Positions 1,290-6,580 of a stretch of 6,721 bases of DNA are shown here, piece after piece (the first letter of the stretch is position 1; every line of letters starts with the position of its first letter). A program made the position numbers and the translations under genes. Below the pieces are notes generated by a model. The model was given only the letters and a program-made list of their open reading frames with translations. It did not search any database and had not been told where the DNA came from. Source of the DNA: Christensenella sp. UBA3700 (GTDB lineage Bacteria > Bacillota > Clostridia > Christensenellales > UBA3700); the NCBI GenBank assembly GCA_002372775.1, contig DFIJ01000034.1:1-6721 (forward strand), given 5' to 3'.

Positions 1290-2294
1290 ATGGTTACGCT
1301 AATATTAGTATTAATAGCGGTCTTTGTTAGCGCGATAACCACTTAGTTAGTGCTTAAACCGAAACTTAAATCGGTACAAACTTTAGACCGCTCGGTGATA
1401 AAGGAGAATGAAGAGAACCAAAAGGTAAAAGCTAGATTAGAGATAGAAATCGCTAATCTAAATGGTTCTAAAACCCAAAAGCAGAAAGATATTGAAGAAG
1501 CTTCAAAAAATTTAACTCAGCTCAACGATATATTAGAAAATAGAAAACGAAATATAGAAGAAGAGCTTAAAAAGTCGGCTAAGGCGGCAGAAATTACTAT
1601 AGGTGAAAGCCTAGAAAAAACTGCTGAGGTAGAGAGAGAAAAATTAGCTGAAGCATTGGAGCAAATCCAACAAGAATATGATTCTTTTGTAACAGAGTGC
1701 GCTCTTAGTTTAAATGAAACTATAGAAGATAAAAAGACGACCATAACCGATCTTGAAACAGCTTTACAAGAACTGCAAAGTAAATATTTTTGTATTATTG
1801 AAGAAAATAAACGAGCAGAAGAAATAAAGGCTAAGGCTGACTTCTATAAACTCCAAATATCTGAAGCAGATTTAAAAGAAGTCCAAAAGTTAAGAGAAAT
1901 TAGTAAGGAATTGCGCGACCCCACCCCACTAAATAAGATGATATGGACTTAGTATTTTAGAAATCCCTGGTCAGAGCTTTCAGGGCGTGTTATAGGCTCC
2001 GGCCGCCATACTGGTATTTATAAAATAACTAATCTGTCTAATGGGATGGCATAGATCGGACAGGCAGTGGATCTGCGAGATAGATGGTCTACACATATTA
2101 AAACAGGCTTAGGTGCTGAGACACCAACTCGCAATAAATTATATCCAGCTATGCTTGCTTTTGGAGTAGAGAATTTCACTTTTGAAGTTTTAGAAGAGTG
2201 TTCTTCGGAGCAACTCAATGAAAGAGAAAAATTTTAGATACAATTCTATGATACAACTAATTATGGTTAGAATGTAACTAGAGGAGGAAGTTAA
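1290..2294 (+). CDS. Membrane-anchored coiled-coil GIY-YIG nuclease (DUF4041/T5orf172-like), five in-frame TAG codons read as Tyr
   Basis: A 334-residue protein if UAG is decoded. Residues 1-22 form one membrane segment (MVTLILVLIAVFVSAITT then Tyr19), residues about 35-205 a long charged coiled coil, and residues about 220-334 a GIY-YIG nuclease domain as in DUF4041/T5orf172-type phage proteins. The domain shows GIY at 242-244, xIGQ at 255-258, DLRDRWSTH with Arg265 and His269, NERE with Glu311/313, and GxN with Asn328. TAG codons at 1344, 1950, 2052, 2235 and 2268 encode residues 19, 221, 255, 316 and 327. Residue 255 is the second catalytic Tyr of GIY-YIG, and 327 is the Tyr of GYN. The gene ends in TAA, overlapping the next ATG by one base. 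The ATG at 1290 follows the terminator with no visible Shine-Dalgarno; GTG at 1350 is an alternative start but would lose the membrane segment. Probable role: DNA nicking or cleavage, as a free-standing homing enzyme or in phage competition. Confidence 0.88.
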
Positions 2295-2938
2295 TGAAGG
2301 TAAAGAACATAGAAACATTTAACTGGACGGCGGCGATGCGCGGTATGAGGAATCCCATGAACAGCTGGCCTAAGAATGACACAGAAATGATGACATTGTC
2401 TGGTAAGCCAGTTTTAGGTCCTAATGATTTGGATTTAGCTAAGCGTCTGTGCGCGGCAGGATCAGAACATCGTAAGTGGATGCGTCAGGTCTTTGTTTCT
2501 ATGGATATTACAGCACCGATGTATTGGTGGAGTGAAATGGACACTTAGAAAGTTGGTACGACAGCGAACAGTACCTCGAAGATGCACAAACTTGCTTCTA
2601 CCCCCATAACTATTAACTGTTTTGAAACAGATGATATGGTAGAAGATATTCTTATAGGTGATGATTTAACGGGCGCTACAGCCTGGGCTAACCTACTGAG
2701 TTATTGTGAGCAGCTCCGCCTCAAATATCTTGAAACTAAAGATATTCGCTATTGGAAAGAGCTTCTCCGCATACTACCTAACAGTTGGTTGCAGACTAGA
2801 ACATGGACAGGAAACTATGAAATATTGCGAAATATCTATCATCAAAGAAAGAGCCATCGTTTAACCGAGTGGCACACCTTTCTTGATACAATAGTAAAAG
2901 AGCTACCATAGGCTCAAGAATTCATAGTTGACAATTAA
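2294..2938 (+). CDS. ThyX-like phage protein with two in-frame TAG codons read as Tyr
   Basis: A 214-residue protein. The block SEHRKWMRQVFVSMDITAP, then MYWWSEMDT, Tyr85 (TAG at 2546), KVGTTANSTSKMHKL, and a later block LPNSWLQTRTWTGNYEILR followed by QRKSHRLTEW, match my memory of a Firmicutes/phage family related to flavin-dependent thymidylate synthases (ThyX), where the first block reads DTYKVGT. I cannot find the full ThyX signature RHRxxSxxxxS, so catalytic activity (dUMP to dTMP) is uncertain and a divergent or structural role is possible. A second TAG at 2909 encodes Tyr206 in LPYAQEF; the true end is TAA at 2936-2938. The start is clear: GAGGAGG at 2281-2287 lies 6 bases before the ATG, which overlaps the stop of the nuclease gene (TAATG). 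The last codons overlap the promoter of the next operon. Read with the standard code, this gene falls apart into two unrelated-looking ORFs. Confidence 0.8.
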
Positions 2939-2956
2939 TAAAAAATTTGTTATAAT
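2928..2956 (+). promoter_or_regulatory. Consensus sigma-A promoter for the 2996-6580 recombination operon
   Basis: TTGACA at 2928-2933, a 17-base spacer and TATAAT at 2951-2956 give a perfect consensus promoter. The -35 box lies inside the last codons of the ThyX-like gene. The predicted start is near 2963, which is also the A of a tiny ATG reading frame (see 2963-2986). It should drive the winged-helix, SSB-like and Sak4 genes, which follow without a terminator. Confidence 0.88.
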
Positions 2957-2962
2957 ATATAT

Positions 2963-2986
2963 ATGAATGATAAAGAAAGTGAGTAA
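2963..2986 (+). other. Possible seven-codon leader peptide at the 5' end of the operon mRNA
   Basis: ATG at 2963 reads MNDKESE and stops at TAA (2984-2986), nine bases before the ATG at 2996 and in the same frame. The ATG falls at the predicted transcription start, so it would be leaderless. The main start at 2996 has only a weak Shine-Dalgarno, so re-initiation is conceivable. This may be chance in AT-rich DNA. Confidence 0.25.
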
Positions 2987-2995
2987 GTTATAAAA

Positions 2996-3355
2996 ATGAA
3001 ACAAGAATTTATGGATTTTTTGGATGCACTTATGAAAGCAGCGCCGCAAGTTGTAGAGGAAAAGGGTAATGAAAAAATTATGGCTTATATTGAAGCCCTA
3101 AGAGAAAATACCAAAAAGCAGACAGGATTAACAGAAAATGGAGCGCTTGTCTTGAAATATTTGCAGACGGCTGACTCACTTACTTTTAAGGCGAGAGATA
3201 TCGGTGAAGGTATTGGGCTGTCCAGCCGCACGGTATCTGGAGCTTTGAGAAAGCTGGTAAACGATGGATTTGTAGAAAAGTTTGGAGAGAACCCCACGAT
3301 TTATTCGATTACCGAAAAAGGAAAAAATTATAACATTGAAGGAGAACAAGAATAA
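2996..3355 (+). CDS. Winged-helix (MarR-like) DNA-binding protein
   Basis: A 119-residue protein. Residues 1-40 form a helical N-terminal part (MKQEFMDFLDALMKAAPQVV). Residues about 47-115 form a winged helix: NGALVLKYLQ (helix 1), TFKARDIGEGIG (helix 2), LSSRTVSGALRKLVNDGFVE (recognition helix and helix after it), then a wing EKFGENPTIYSITEKGKNY. The pattern resembles MarR/GntR-type regulators, and the VLKYLQ...GA segment resembles the 960-1235 protein, so the two may be paralogues. As first gene of the operon next to the SSB-like and Sak4 genes, it may regulate the operon or bind replication DNA. It overlaps the next gene by one base (TAATG) and probably couples translation. There is no strong Shine-Dalgarno before ATG 2996; GTGAG at 2979-2983 is the nearest candidate. 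All four Tyr codons are TAT. Confidence 0.82.
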   Translation: MKQEFMDFLDALMKAAPQVVEEKGNEKIMAYIEALRENTKKQTGLTENGALVLKYLQTADSLTFKARDIGEGIGLSSRTVSGALRKLVNDGFVEKFGENPTIYSITEKGKNYNIEGEQE

Positions 3356-4314
3356 TGAAGAAAGATTTAAAGAATAATGTACATTTGGAAGGTAGACTTT
3401 ATCAGCACAATTTAAGTTTGAAGACTACTGGTCCTAATTCTAAGGCACCTGGCACACAGTTTATTTCCGGTACTTTGGATGTAGCGACTGATGATAATAT
3501 AACCAACATTGTAACAGTACATTATACTTATGTTACAGCTAAGTATGGCTCTTCTGGTAAGGATAATCCTAACTTTAAGGTTCTTAATGACATTATTGAT
3601 GGAAAGTATCTTACTTGTATGGCCGATGGCTCTGATGTAGCAACAAAGGTAAGTATTGATACAAATATTGGTCTTAACGATTTCTATTCTGATAGAGATA
3701 AGGACGAGAATGGAGAGCCTAGACTTGTTTCTGCAAAGAGGAACGAGGGTGGTTTCATTAGAATCGTCAAGGATCTTAAGGCCGCAGACAAGGATCGTAA
3801 CAATTTTACAGCAGATATTGTTATTACAGGTATGACTCGTAGAGAAGCCGATCCTGAGAGAGACCTTCCTGAGAAGGGAATTATTAAGGGGGCAATTTTT
3901 GATTTTAGAAATGCTCTTCTTCCTGTAGAGTTCTCGGTAACAGCACCTCAGGCTATTGATTATTTCGAAGGTCTCGAGCCTTCTGCTAAGAATCCTGTAT
4001 TCACAAGAGTTAAGGGAACTGAAATTTCTGAAGTAGTTAAGAGAACAATCACTCAAGAGGGTGCTTTTGGTGACGAGGTTCGTGAAGTCAACTCTACTCG
4101 TAGAGATTGGGTTATCACTTGGGCCCAGGCTGAACCTTTTGAGTGGGATAGTGAGGAAACCATTACAGCCGCAGAGCTTACAAAGGCTATGCAGGATCGT
4201 CAGATTTATCTTGCTGAAGTCAAGAAGAGATATGATGAGTATAAGGAATCTCAGGGTAACGCAATTGCGGCCGCTCCTGCAAAGAATACAGCAGCAACTA
4301 CTTTTGAATTTTAA
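3355..4314 (+). CDS. SSB-like (OB-fold) phage protein, partner of the Sak4 ATPase
   Basis: A 319-residue protein of a family commonly found directly upstream of Sak4-type ATPases in Firmicutes phages, which I believe acts as a single-stranded DNA-binding protein; this rests on recalled family resemblance, not a catalytic motif. It opens MKKDLKNNVHLEGRLYQHNL, with beta-rich stretches typical of an OB fold (GTQFISGTLDVATDD, ITNIVTVHYTYVTAKYG). A conserved middle includes DFYSDRD, AKRNEGGFIRIVKDL and KGAIFDFRNALLPVEF. A helical segment (AELTKAMQDRQIYLAEVKKR) and an Ala-rich linker lead to the tail TFEF; a short terminal peptide ending in Phe with an acidic residue recalls SSB tails that recruit partners. 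GGAG at 3341-3344 precedes the ATG by 10 bases. There are about ten Tyr codons and no TAG. Codon use (AAG, CTT, GGT) suggests good expression. The stop is TAA, 20 bases before the Sak4 ATG. Confidence 0.78.
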   Translation: MKKDLKNNVHLEGRLYQHNLSLKTTGPNSKAPGTQFISGTLDVATDDNITNIVTVHYTYVTAKYGSSGKDNPNFKVLNDIIDGKYLTCMADGSDVATKVSIDTNIGLNDFYSDRDKDENGEPRLVSAKRNEGGFIRIVKDLKAADKDRNNFTADIVITGMTRREADPERDLPEKGIIKGAIFDFRNALLPVEFSVTAPQAIDYFEGLEPSAKNPVFTRVKGTEISEVVKRTITQEGAFGDEVREVNSTRRDWVITWAQAEPFEWDSEETITAAELTKAMQDRQIYLAEVKKRYDEYKESQGNAIAAAPAKNTAATTFEF

Positions 4315-4334
4315 TTAAAAGGAGGTAAATGTAA

Positions 4335-6580
4335 ATGATTAACTTACTTGCGATAGAACCGCATAAAGTGAGCAGGGATTTGTCAGGTTACATAACTTAC
4401 CTTTATGGAGCGCCTAAGACATTGGGCCTCTAAGTGGCAACGCTTAGAGATAATGTAGTAAAAATCTGGAACTCTGGAATGAGAATCAGAGCGGAAGGCT
4501 GGGTGTAAAAACCCAGCCACGCGCAACGCATAGAATTGTTAAACTTTTTAAGTTAAGGAGGATGTTCAGTGTGAATATCGAAGAAGAAAAAAGTATAATT
4601 AACGATTATACTGTAAATAAAATTTGCATAACTAAATTAGCCAAAAAGTATCACCACAATGCTAGAATGATAACAGCAATTTTAGATAAATATGGTATAA
4701 ATCACAGTAGAGGTCAACTAAGAACAGGAGTTAGCAATTCCGCTTGTAAAAGAGAATTCACCCAAGAAGAAAAAGAATTAGTTCGTTCTATTTATTCTAA
4801 CGGTGGAACGATAAAAGACTGTGAAAAAGCTGTGCATTGTGGACAGGATACGCTTAGAGAATTATTAAAGGAATTAAATATTTACAAGAGTCATGCTGAA
4901 ACAAACATTGCCTTGCCTCAAAACCAAAGAAAATATCCAGTAAATGAAAATTTTTTCTTTAATCAATCTTCTAATTTAGCTTATTTTTTAGGCTTTTTAG
5001 CATCAGATGGATATATTCGTAAAGATAATAATGAAATAGGTATAGGATTAAGCGCAGTCGATAGACAACAATTAGAACAATTTAGAAGTGCTATAGGTGG
5101 AAGAGAAATAAACGCATATACTACAAATGAAGGTTTTTCAGTCGTTAAGTGGGTATTTACTTCACAGAAAGTAAAAGAAGAATTAAAAAAATATTCTATT
5201 ATTCCACAAAAAACTTTTAAACTCTTACCCCCAACAAAACTAGAAAGAAAATATTGGATAGATTATATTCGAGGATATTTTGATGGGGATGGCTCTGTAA
5301 ATTATTTAACTTCCAACAAAGCTCTGAGGTGGCAAATTTGTTCCGCAACACCGGAAATTTTATATTGGATTATTGATTTTTTGTATGAAGAATATAATAT
5401 TCCTAAAGTTAGTGTTTTAACAGCACAAAGAAAAGAAAAACTTTATTATTTTCAGTATAGCACTAATGCTACAAAGGAAATTTATAAAATACTTTATACT
5501 AAAGATAGTTGGTTTTTACAAAGAAAAAAAGATAAATTTGAAGAAATACTTAAAAAGATATAAGATTCCACGAGACTACACATCTCACAAGTTAGAGATG
5601 AAAAGATATGCTGAACTAGTGTGAATAATAAACACTAGAGCTATTGGATAAAAAGCCAGTAGGATAACAAATTGAAAGTCGGTAAGACTACGCTCGTCTC
5701 CAAATTTCCTGGAGTACTGCTTCTTGCAACGGAGAAGGGCTATAACGCATTACCGGGTGTAATGGCTCAAGATATTACTCGTTGGGGTGATATTAAAGAA
5801 GTTGTTAGAGAATTGAAAAAGCCCGAAGTAAAAGAAAGATTCAAAACAGTTGCTATTGATACTATTGATGTAGCAGCTAGTTACTGTGATAAATACATTT
5901 GCAACCAGCTTGGTATCGAGTCATTGGGCGAAGGTGGTTGGACTGTGAATGGATGGGCGAAGTATAAGAAGGAACTTGAGGACACTTTCCGCACTATCAC
6001 AAACCTGGGTTAGGCACTTGTATTTATATCTCATGATTCTGATAAGACATTTAAGCGTAAGGATGGTACAGAATATAACCAAACGGTCCCAACAGTACAG
6101 AAGTCTGCGAATGATATAATTAAAGCTATGGCAGATATTTACTGTTATGCTACTATTGATGAAGCCTCTAAGGAGCGTAAGCTTATTCTTCGTTCCTTGG
6201 ATGGCACAGTAGATGCTGGATGTAGATTCAGGTATATAAAACCTGAAATTTCTCTTGATTATCAAGCTCTTGTAGATGCTATGAATGAAGCTATTGACAA
6301 GGAAGCTAAAGAAAACGATAATAAATATGTTACTGAAAAGCGTGAAGAGGCTCCTGCTACTGCTGTTGAATATGATTATGACGCACTTATGGCAGAGTTC
6401 AATGATTTGGCCGGTAAACTAATGAGTAAAGACTCGACATACTACGGGCCAAGAGTAACACAGATTGTTAGCAAGATTCTTGGTAAGAACAAGAAGGTGA
6501 GCGAAACAACTAGAGACCAGGCAGAGTTTATCTACTTAATTGTAGGTGAAATGAAAGACGAGTTTGGTTCAGTACTTTAA
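4335..6580 (+). CDS. Sak4-type RecA-like phage recombinase ATPase, split by a group I intron; exons 4335-4415 and 5675-6580
   Basis: The spliced product is 328 residues. Exon 1 (4335-4415, 27 codons) begins MINLLAIEPHKVSRDLSGYI and ends YGAP; exon 2 (5675-6580) resumes KVGKTTLVSKF. Joining restores Walker A GAPKVGKTT (residues 25-33). Walker B is TVAIDTID (85-92), followed by LGYALVFISHDSDKT (138-152), a core strand plus sensor-like region of Sak4/RecA-fold ATPases. These proteins act with SSB in single-strand annealing and phage recombination. Residue 140 (Tyr of LGY) is a TAG at 6011; the frame continues to TAA at 6578-6580. The C-terminal third has a charged linker (EAKENDNKYVTEKREEAP) and a helical tail ending EFGSVL. 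The start is set by AAAGGAGGT at 4318-4326. The unspliced message stops at TAA 4431-4433, just inside the intron. Without splicing and UAG decoding no full ATPase is made. I am sure of the family and fairly sure of the junction. Confidence 0.88.
4412..4427 (+). other. 5' splice site and internal guide sequence (P1) of the group I intron
   Basis: Exon 1 ends at T4415. GCCT (4412-4415) pairs with GGGC (4424-4427), placing the expected U.G wobble at the cut. The loop bases 4418-4423 (GACATT) can pair with the first six bases of exon 2 (AAAGTC, 5675-5680) in 5 of 6 positions, forming P10. Confidence 0.78.
4555..4573 (+). promoter_or_regulatory. Ribosome binding site that favours GTG 4571 as the endonuclease start
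   Basis: AAGGAGG (4555-4561) abuts ATG 4562 with no spacer but stands 9 bases before the in-frame GTG at 4571. The site is inside the intron, so the endonuclease can be translated from unspliced RNA. Confidence 0.6.
4571..5563 (+). CDS. Intron-encoded LAGLIDADG homing endonuclease
   Basis: A 330-residue protein from the preferred GTG at 4571 (333 if ATG 4562 is used). AAGGAGG at 4555-4561 directly touches ATG 4562, too close for normal initiation, while GTG 4571 lies 9 bases away. The N-terminal third has two helix-turn-helix-like repeats (NKICITKLAKKYHHNARMI; KDCEKAVHCGQDTLRELLKE), likely DNA-binding. Two LAGLIDADG helices follow: YFLGFLASDGY and IRGYFDGDGSV (about residues 138-148 and 233-243 counted from the GTG), each ending in the acidic catalytic Asp (ASDG, DGDG). 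A single chain can therefore form both halves of the active site. It would cut intronless Sak4 alleles at the conserved P-loop sequence and promote homing. All 22 tyrosines are TAT/TAC; there is no TAG. The stop is TAA, 11 bases before the P3 3' strand. Codon use is more A-rich than in the exons, consistent with separate origin. Confidence 0.92.
   Translation: MNIEEEKSIINDYTVNKICITKLAKKYHHNARMITAILDKYGINHSRGQLRTGVSNSACKREFTQEEKELVRSIYSNGGTIKDCEKAVHCGQDTLRELLKELNIYKSHAETNIALPQNQRKYPVNENFFFNQSSNLAYFLGFLASDGYIRKDNNEIGIGLSAVDRQQLEQFRSAIGGREINAYTTNEGFSVVKWVFTSQKVKEELKKYSIIPQKTFKLLPPTKLERKYWIDYIRGYFDGDGSVNYLTSNKALRWQICSATPEILYWIIDFLYEEYNIPKVSVLTAQRKEKLYYFQYSTNATKEIYKILYTKDSWFLQRKKDKFEEILKKI
5664..5680 (+). 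other. 3' splice site of the group I intron and P10 exon bases
   Basis: The intron ends with G5674 (terminal omega-G of group I introns). Exon 2 begins AAAGTCGGT, which after joining to ...GCGCCT reads Ala-Pro-Lys-Val-Gly. Any shift of the junction by one or two bases breaks the frame or the P-loop spacing GxxxxGK. Confidence 0.75.

Follow-up and report, generated by a model that had tools for sequence, protein, structure and literature searches.

In the 6,721-bp window analyzed here, an entire contig (C20) of the metagenome-assembled bin G000, the codon UAG appears to be read as tyrosine (Tyr). The window is, judged by its sequence, phage DNA, and three of its genes contain in-frame TAG codons, eight in all. 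The same meaning is assigned to UAG in a related 150,486-bp phage, IMGVR_UViG_3300028591_000104 (G030 below), and in both phages it is strongly supported by the residues that homologous proteins carry at these positions; a phage-borne tRNA-Tyr with anticodon CUA is the likely decoding agent. The full reading—UAG as Tyr in both phages, probably through this tRNA charged by the tyrosyl-tRNA synthetase (TyrRS) of the host, with UAA and UGA as stops—is one that we hold to be highly probable. The bin comprises 179 contigs and 1.79 Mb, with a completeness of 81.8% and a contamination of 3.3%.

In-frame TAG codons and their alignment columns

Five of the TAG codons lie in a GIY-YIG nuclease gene (1290..2294; 334 codons; PF01541, E 5.8e-9), two in the gene of a weakly ThyX-like phrog_6721 protein (2294..2938; 214 codons; PHROG/Pfam match), and one in the second exon of a Sak4-like ATPase gene, which an intron divides into exon 1 (4335..4415) and exon 2 (5675..6580). 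All are on the plus strand, and each gene ends at TAA. The junction of the Sak4 exons was placed through the intronless relative L034 and through G030, and exon 2 was recognized from its open reading frame (ORF) and family match; the joined frame (4335-4415 + 5675-6580) encodes 328 amino acids and matches phrog_124 (E 5.1e-43). The preliminary description had named these families from the sequence alone, and for the nuclease and Sak4 the profile matches bear it out. Its ThyX-like label is weak: PF02511 reaches only E 0.05 in the ORF at 2294-2938, under the family cut-off, but is present in 3 of the 120 homologues listed for this protein.

Alignable homologous sequence flanks all eight TAG codons on both sides, and no TAA or TGA interrupts any of the three frames that hold them. 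Among the nine visible gene ends, eight are TAA, one (at 629) is TGA and none is TAG. Both features had been claimed beforehand, and both are confirmed. The program's start for the last ORF, at 5621, would give ten TAGs, but those at 5636 and 5660 were excluded because they lie in the intron tail.

To read the codon from its columns, TAG was kept as X, the proteins of each phage were aligned to those of other phages with phmmer, and substitution odds were trained on sense codons within the same alignments. As a control, 183 of 183 sense codons tested were recovered (G030 and the relatives G003 and G037); in eight-site samples TAT was called Tyr in 498 of 500 trials and CAG was called glutamine (Gln) in 466 of 500.

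In the window, 32 of the 41 residues facing the eight TAGs are Tyr and none is Gln, and Tyr leads Gln by 22.2 nats and phenylalanine by 8.7. In the nuclease, Tyr faces residue 19 (1344..1346) in two of two cases, residue 255 (2052..2054, in MA-x-IGQ) in six of six, residue 316 (2235..2237) in three of five, the other two being tryptophan, and residue 327 (2268..2270) in two of three, the other being leucine; residue 255 occupies the Tyr of the YIG motif of the PF01541 domain. Residue 221 (1950..1952) faces a six-way tie (Y, V, I, L, S, E). In the phrog_6721 protein, residues 85 (2546..2548) and 206 (2909..2911) face Tyr in five of five and six of six cases, and residue 140 of the joined Sak4 (6011..6013) faces Tyr in seven of eight, with one phenylalanine. 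The expectation that Tyr would be the conserved residue at the well-anchored positions thus holds at seven of the eight columns, where it is commonest, and a search for columns dominated by Gln found none.

The same test extends to relatives with more sites. L033, an 11.8-kb IMG/VR contig, shares 99.06% identity with the window across 6,191 aligned positions and retains each of the eight window TAGs. Beyond the window it runs on through genes for a helicase, a primase and RecJ, and the RecJ gene holds five further TAGs. Fifteen of the 20 TAGs of L033 could be aligned and face Tyr in 45 of 76 cases, with Tyr ahead of Gln by 29.6 nats and of phenylalanine by 10.6 (gene bootstrap: Tyr 971/1000, methionine 29). 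In G030, 46 of 161 TAGs in 25 genes were crossed by homology; they face Tyr in 105 of 186 cases, and Tyr leads Gln by 74.1 nats and phenylalanine by 37.5, with a gene bootstrap of 1000/1000. These columns behave much like those of ordinary Tyr codons: the Tyr share in G030 is 57% for TAG, 54% for TAT and 57% for TAC, and sites with a Tyr majority are about equally frequent for TAT (61%) and TAG (63%). Across the three data sets the prior suggestion that UAG means Tyr is well supported. Phenylalanine, Gln and tryptophan were tried as meanings and rejected; phenylalanine, the next best, is 8.7 to 37.5 nats worse than Tyr, and the Gln score expected under code 15 lies 22.2 to 74.1 nats below it.

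Gene structure agrees with an open TAG. With TAG open, the gene models of G030 hold 43,059 amino acids against 36,426 under code 11; its 161 TAGs are spread over 76 of 156 ORFs, terminase and portal among them, other stops are not in excess, and UAA terminates 108 of the 156. A check for genome-wide use of TAG as a stop accordingly went against such use. The signs of TAG recoding—homology across in-frame TAGs, TAA and TGA at gene ends, denser genes with TAG open—are thus all present. Gene decay or chance is rejected as an explanation: alignable homologues span every one of the eight window TAGs, and L033 retains them.

A larger protein set (5.8 billion proteins) and codon exchanges among relatives point the same way. 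For Sak4, among the 120 listed of 3,127 homologues, the TAG column holds Tyr in 118 and Gln in two (P0001, P0005). P0001 is identical to the query, so its Gln tells only which translation table was used, and three listed entries at 98-99% identity have Tyr. Of 120 homologues listed for the phrog_6721 protein, 116 have Tyr and four Gln at residue 85, and 105 have Tyr and 11 Gln at residue 206, which four do not reach; at two TAG columns of the G030 terminase (phrog_2), Tyr stands in 119 and 109 of 120 listed homologues. The Gln letters are most simply TAG codons translated under code 15, judged for entries at 60-88% identity from the protein sequence alone; public entries with Gln where nearly all relatives have Tyr are P0001, P0005, P0121, P0124, P0241 and P0242. 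At the nucleotide level, L034 has TAT at window TAG 6011, the window has TAT where L033 has TAG (1717), and of the 34 TAGs compared with G030 from L033 and the bin contigs C30, C7, C139 and C174, 16 face TAT there, two TAC, three TAG and 13 other codons.

A tyrosine-type tRNA with anticodon CUA

The four bin contigs just named and the window appear to be fragments of a single G030-like phage, as best matches and gene order suggest. G030 matches the window at 71-75% nucleotide identity over most of its non-intron part (1292-1787 has no match) and matches C30 and C7 in regions outside the window-like part; C174 and C139 also match it, best among reference phages. In C174, which covers the terminase/portal region, seven TAG sites face Tyr in 24 of 36 cases, with Tyr over Gln by 21.1 nats; the 19 sites of C30, C7, C139 and C174 pooled place Tyr 6.9 nats over phenylalanine and 20.8 over Gln.

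A CUA tRNA with Tyr features had been proposed as a check, and one was found in C30 and another in G030. The bin has 51 Rfam tRNA matches, all but C155:70641 within stretches scanned with ARAGORN, which reported two CUA tRNAs, in C30 and C76. That of C30 (6422-6507, minus strand) has a long variable arm, G1-C72 and A73, and is 75% identical to the bin's tRNA-Tyr(GUA). In G030, 26 tRNA genes and a transfer-messenger RNA (tmRNA) were found, the tRNAs including tRNA-Tyr(GUA), two tRNA-Gln and exactly one CUA tRNA, which adjoins tRNA-Cys as in C30, lies at the homologous position of a syntenic region and is 76% identical to the C30 gene.

Isotype profiles with masked anticodons, which in leave-one-out trials recovered Tyr in 9 of 10, serine in 25 of 26, leucine in 34 of 35 and Gln in 10 of 14 cases, were applied to 37 CUA-tRNA rows, some being the same gene twice. 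Tyr scored best in only two, C30 (Tyr 28.4, serine 21.0, Gln outside the four best) and G030 (Tyr 21.3, serine 18.8, Gln 15.1). The Gln-type CUA tRNA expected of code 15 was also sought: those of C30 and G030 are scored as Tyr type, and CUA tRNAs with a Gln-type or unclear body are seen in relatives that score Gln at UAG. Of the anticipated identity features, the long variable arm and A73 are present in C30 and the predicted C1-G72 in G030, but C30 has G1-C72. G1-C72 is the usual bacterial Tyr pair and C1-G72 the archaeal one. The second CUA tRNA of the bin, in C76 (L035:1142-1213), scores as glutamate (36.8, next 18.9) and probably belongs to a phage other than the window's; because C76 and C30 each carry tRNA-Cys(GCA) and tRNA-Pro(UGG), two phages are suggested.

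Several further observations concern CUA tRNAs at large. Those of the lineage with C1-G72 and A73 lie in the tmRNA-carrying phages L116 (3629-3711) and G030 (42607-42697); that of L116 was overlooked by ARAGORN and has a low isotype score and an odd T arm. A first Tyr-like CUA pattern matched 28 IMG/VR contigs, 27 of them with an ARAGORN CUA tRNA, and a narrower pattern of the C30/G030 type only two, G030 and the record of L116. The long variable arm was rejected as proof of a Tyr tRNA and dropped as a criterion because all four large phages first drawn from the matches of the first pattern (G001, G003, G004 and, weakly, G005) score Gln best. Other CUA tRNAs score as leucine type (L075, 54.2; L061/L072, 33.4; L067/L074, 26.1) or serine type (L077, 28.3), and one on a 36-kb contig of metagenome 3300021400 (L257:1477-1548) has a glutamate-like D arm; L257 offers no alignable TAG site. 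Folding of the C30 and G030 CUA tRNAs gave minimum structures other than the cloverleaf and was left unused.

Alternative explanations

Several points weigh against the reading proposed here. Another residue than Tyr is commonest at 18 of the 46 G030 sites (Tyr at 28, then phenylalanine at 4, arginine at 3, and others), and window site 1950 faces a variable column with no commonest residue. The ten TAG sites of C139 are uninformative, as are the single sites of C30 and of C7, and one TAG that C7 shares with G030 stands opposite R, R, R and N. The window and C30 are not joined on any single molecule, the tie running through G030. The Tyr lead of the G030 tRNA over serine is narrow, its mean identity to serine tRNAs being equally high, and the C1-G72 pair of the G030 and L116 tRNAs, reportedly disfavored by bacterial TyrRS, is the weakest part of the tRNA argument.

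That UAG means Tyr but is decoded otherwise—by a host suppressor tRNA, by near-cognate tRNA-Tyr(GUA), or by a CUA tRNA charged through another route—is unlikely in our judgment, even though G030 has a pair atypical of bacterial tRNA-Tyr and a glutamate-type CUA tRNA shares the bin with a C30 gene linked to the window only via G030. The single CUA tRNA among the 26 of G030, beside tRNA-Cys as in C30, argues against it, as do the bacterial Tyr features of the C30 gene, its resemblance to the bin's own tRNA-Tyr, and the duplicated tRNA-Cys and tRNA-Pro that set C76 apart. The ordinary code 15, in which UAG is Gln as in most TAG-recoded phages described and as predicted for the relatives, we consider very improbable. 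Four relatives are clearly Gln by the same test and a fifth weakly, a related phage contig of the bin (C148) scores glutamate/Gln, and public entries carry Gln at some of these codons; however, Gln is absent from the facing residues of the window, the nearest Gln entry is identical to the query and reveals only the table used, Tyr outscores Gln in the window, L033 and G030 alike, and the lineage's CUA tRNA is not of Gln type. A normal stop at UAG, with the three genes decayed or regulated through rare read-through, seems barely credible: the two nearest helicase-tree relatives do appear to stop at UAG, and 14 of 68 code-11 ORFs end in TAG in the sampled bin contigs C104, C155, C102 and C19, but the retention of every window TAG in L033, columns like those of Tyr codons, and the TAG-bearing ORFs of G030 speak against it.

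Relatives and the origin of the code

A helicase profile run against IMG/VR found 211 relatives, of which the best 80 were retained; among these G030 is the nearest after L033. In an annotated phage collection the helicase gave 125 matches, every one below 60% identity, with the nearest (37-38%) in Bacillus and Geobacillus phages, and two C30 proteins used as scan queries found three relatives and one relative. By the column test, Gln is the meaning of UAG in G037 (158 sites, 75.9 nats over the next residue), G003 (197 sites, 79.2), G001 (97 sites, 31.3) and G004 (70 sites, 26.6), and weakly in G005 (38 sites, bootstrap 708/1000). A release-factor gene (PF00472) occurs in the Gln-scored G003 (133964-134293) and not in the nine other records searched. 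UAG is most simply a stop in G041 and G042: their frames left open at TAG contain 107 and 127 such codons, none of them aligned across, no CUA tRNA was found, and code-11 gene models are nearly as dense.

Over the best 80 helicase loci, the test returned Tyr for two (L033 and that of G030), Gln for 23, tryptophan for two (from one or two sites) and left 53 unsettled. In a quick tree of these loci, L033 and the G030 locus form a fully supported pair inside a six-row group (support 91) that contains the G041 locus, and a 14-row group (support 95) includes no Gln-scored row. This placement, with G041 near and Gln-scored rows absent, favors an origin of UAG = Tyr from a stop-using ancestor, in a tree where most rows are unscored.

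C148, from a related phage of the same bin, may add a further meaning: its 26 TAG sites score glutamate, Gln trails by 0.4 nats, and Tyr lies 26 lower than Gln. C148 (L237) and the C76 CUA tRNA point to a second TAG-recoded phage in the bin, and it is possible that UAG is glutamate in the phage or phages of these two separate contigs. Whether the Tyr code arose apart from the Gln code and nearest to stop-users, within a family that would hold at least three meanings of UAG (stop, Gln, Tyr and perhaps glutamate) and whose conflicting-code members, the window phage with Tyr and C148 with Gln or glutamate, lie in one bin and may share a host, is a proposal on which we are evenly divided.

A probable mechanism

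If C30 is part of the genome of the window's phage and the host retains UAG as a stop, the phage would most likely make tRNA-Tyr(CUA) after infection; host TyrRS would charge it, and the charged tRNA would compete with the host's release factor 1 for UAG codons, allowing genes that contain UAG to be translated in full. The synthetase and release factor would be the host's, since G030 matches neither the Pfam tRNA-synt_1b (Tyr/Trp synthetase) family nor the RF-1 families. TAG density in G030, per 1000 amino acids, reaches 10.0 within the final 10 kb, where terminase and portal lie, drops to 1.3-2.1 between 60 and 100 kb, and is 7.9 at 30-40 kb; a rule of TAG in late genes only is not established, because of the value at 30-40 kb and because replication genes of the window have TAG too. 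An element of about 40-55 bp is repeated between genes of C30, C7, L116 and G030 (L036 4904-4978; many G030 sites) and is perhaps a phage promoter.

Other features of the window

The window also encodes the end of an NAD-dependent DNA ligase, small helix-turn-helix proteins and a 319-amino-acid protein without a family match. The Sak4 intron (4416-5674) interrupts the P-loop codons, contains a LAGLIDADG gene (4562-5563) and is not present at the equivalent site of L034 and G030. Exon 1 ends in T and the intron in G, matching the pattern of group I introns; an Rfam scan of the window, this intron included, gave no match at gathering level.

Known systems and implications

Code 15 phages, such as crAss-like phages, share with this lineage a large genome, in-gene TAGs, TAA/TGA stops and a CUA tRNA within a tRNA array, but there both the codon meaning and the tRNA are of Gln type and here both score as Tyr. 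In the literature searched, which covers few subscription papers and no preprints, no phage code with UAG = Tyr was found, and we know of no NCBI table with UAG alone as Tyr. In the ciliate Mesodinium, UAR is read as Tyr (PMC11687900), consistent with the parallel offered in the preliminary description. Its nuclear code (NCBI code 29) has UAG = Tyr in common with these phages but also UAA = Tyr, whereas here UAA ends eight of nine window genes and most G030 ORFs. Another parallel is supF, the mutant host amber suppressor tRNA-Tyr of Escherichia coli, whose Tyr-type body with a CUA anticodon would likewise insert Tyr at UAG. There the gene is a host mutant; here it is phage-borne and accompanied by 76 TAG-carrying ORFs in G030. 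The bacterial features of the supF type (long variable arm, G1-C72, A73) are all three in C30, and G030 has C1-G72. Among 180 phage suppressor tRNAs beside theta ribozymes, 1.1% are predicted to be of Tyr isotype, and 96.4% of phages with such tRNAs were assigned code 15 (PMC10879173); the Tyr-isotype members share the predicted isotype with those described here, and that paper presents them without genome, columns or code.

The amino acid taken at UAG seems to follow the tRNA body that bears the CUA anticodon. TAG-recoded phages are annotated with UAG = Gln by default, which would place Gln for Tyr in public proteins of this lineage. The differing meanings of UAG among related phages make code change testable, and they bear on why phages recode, because Tyr would be no less suitable than Gln. 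They also raise the question of how phages that assign UAG differently would interact within a single cell.

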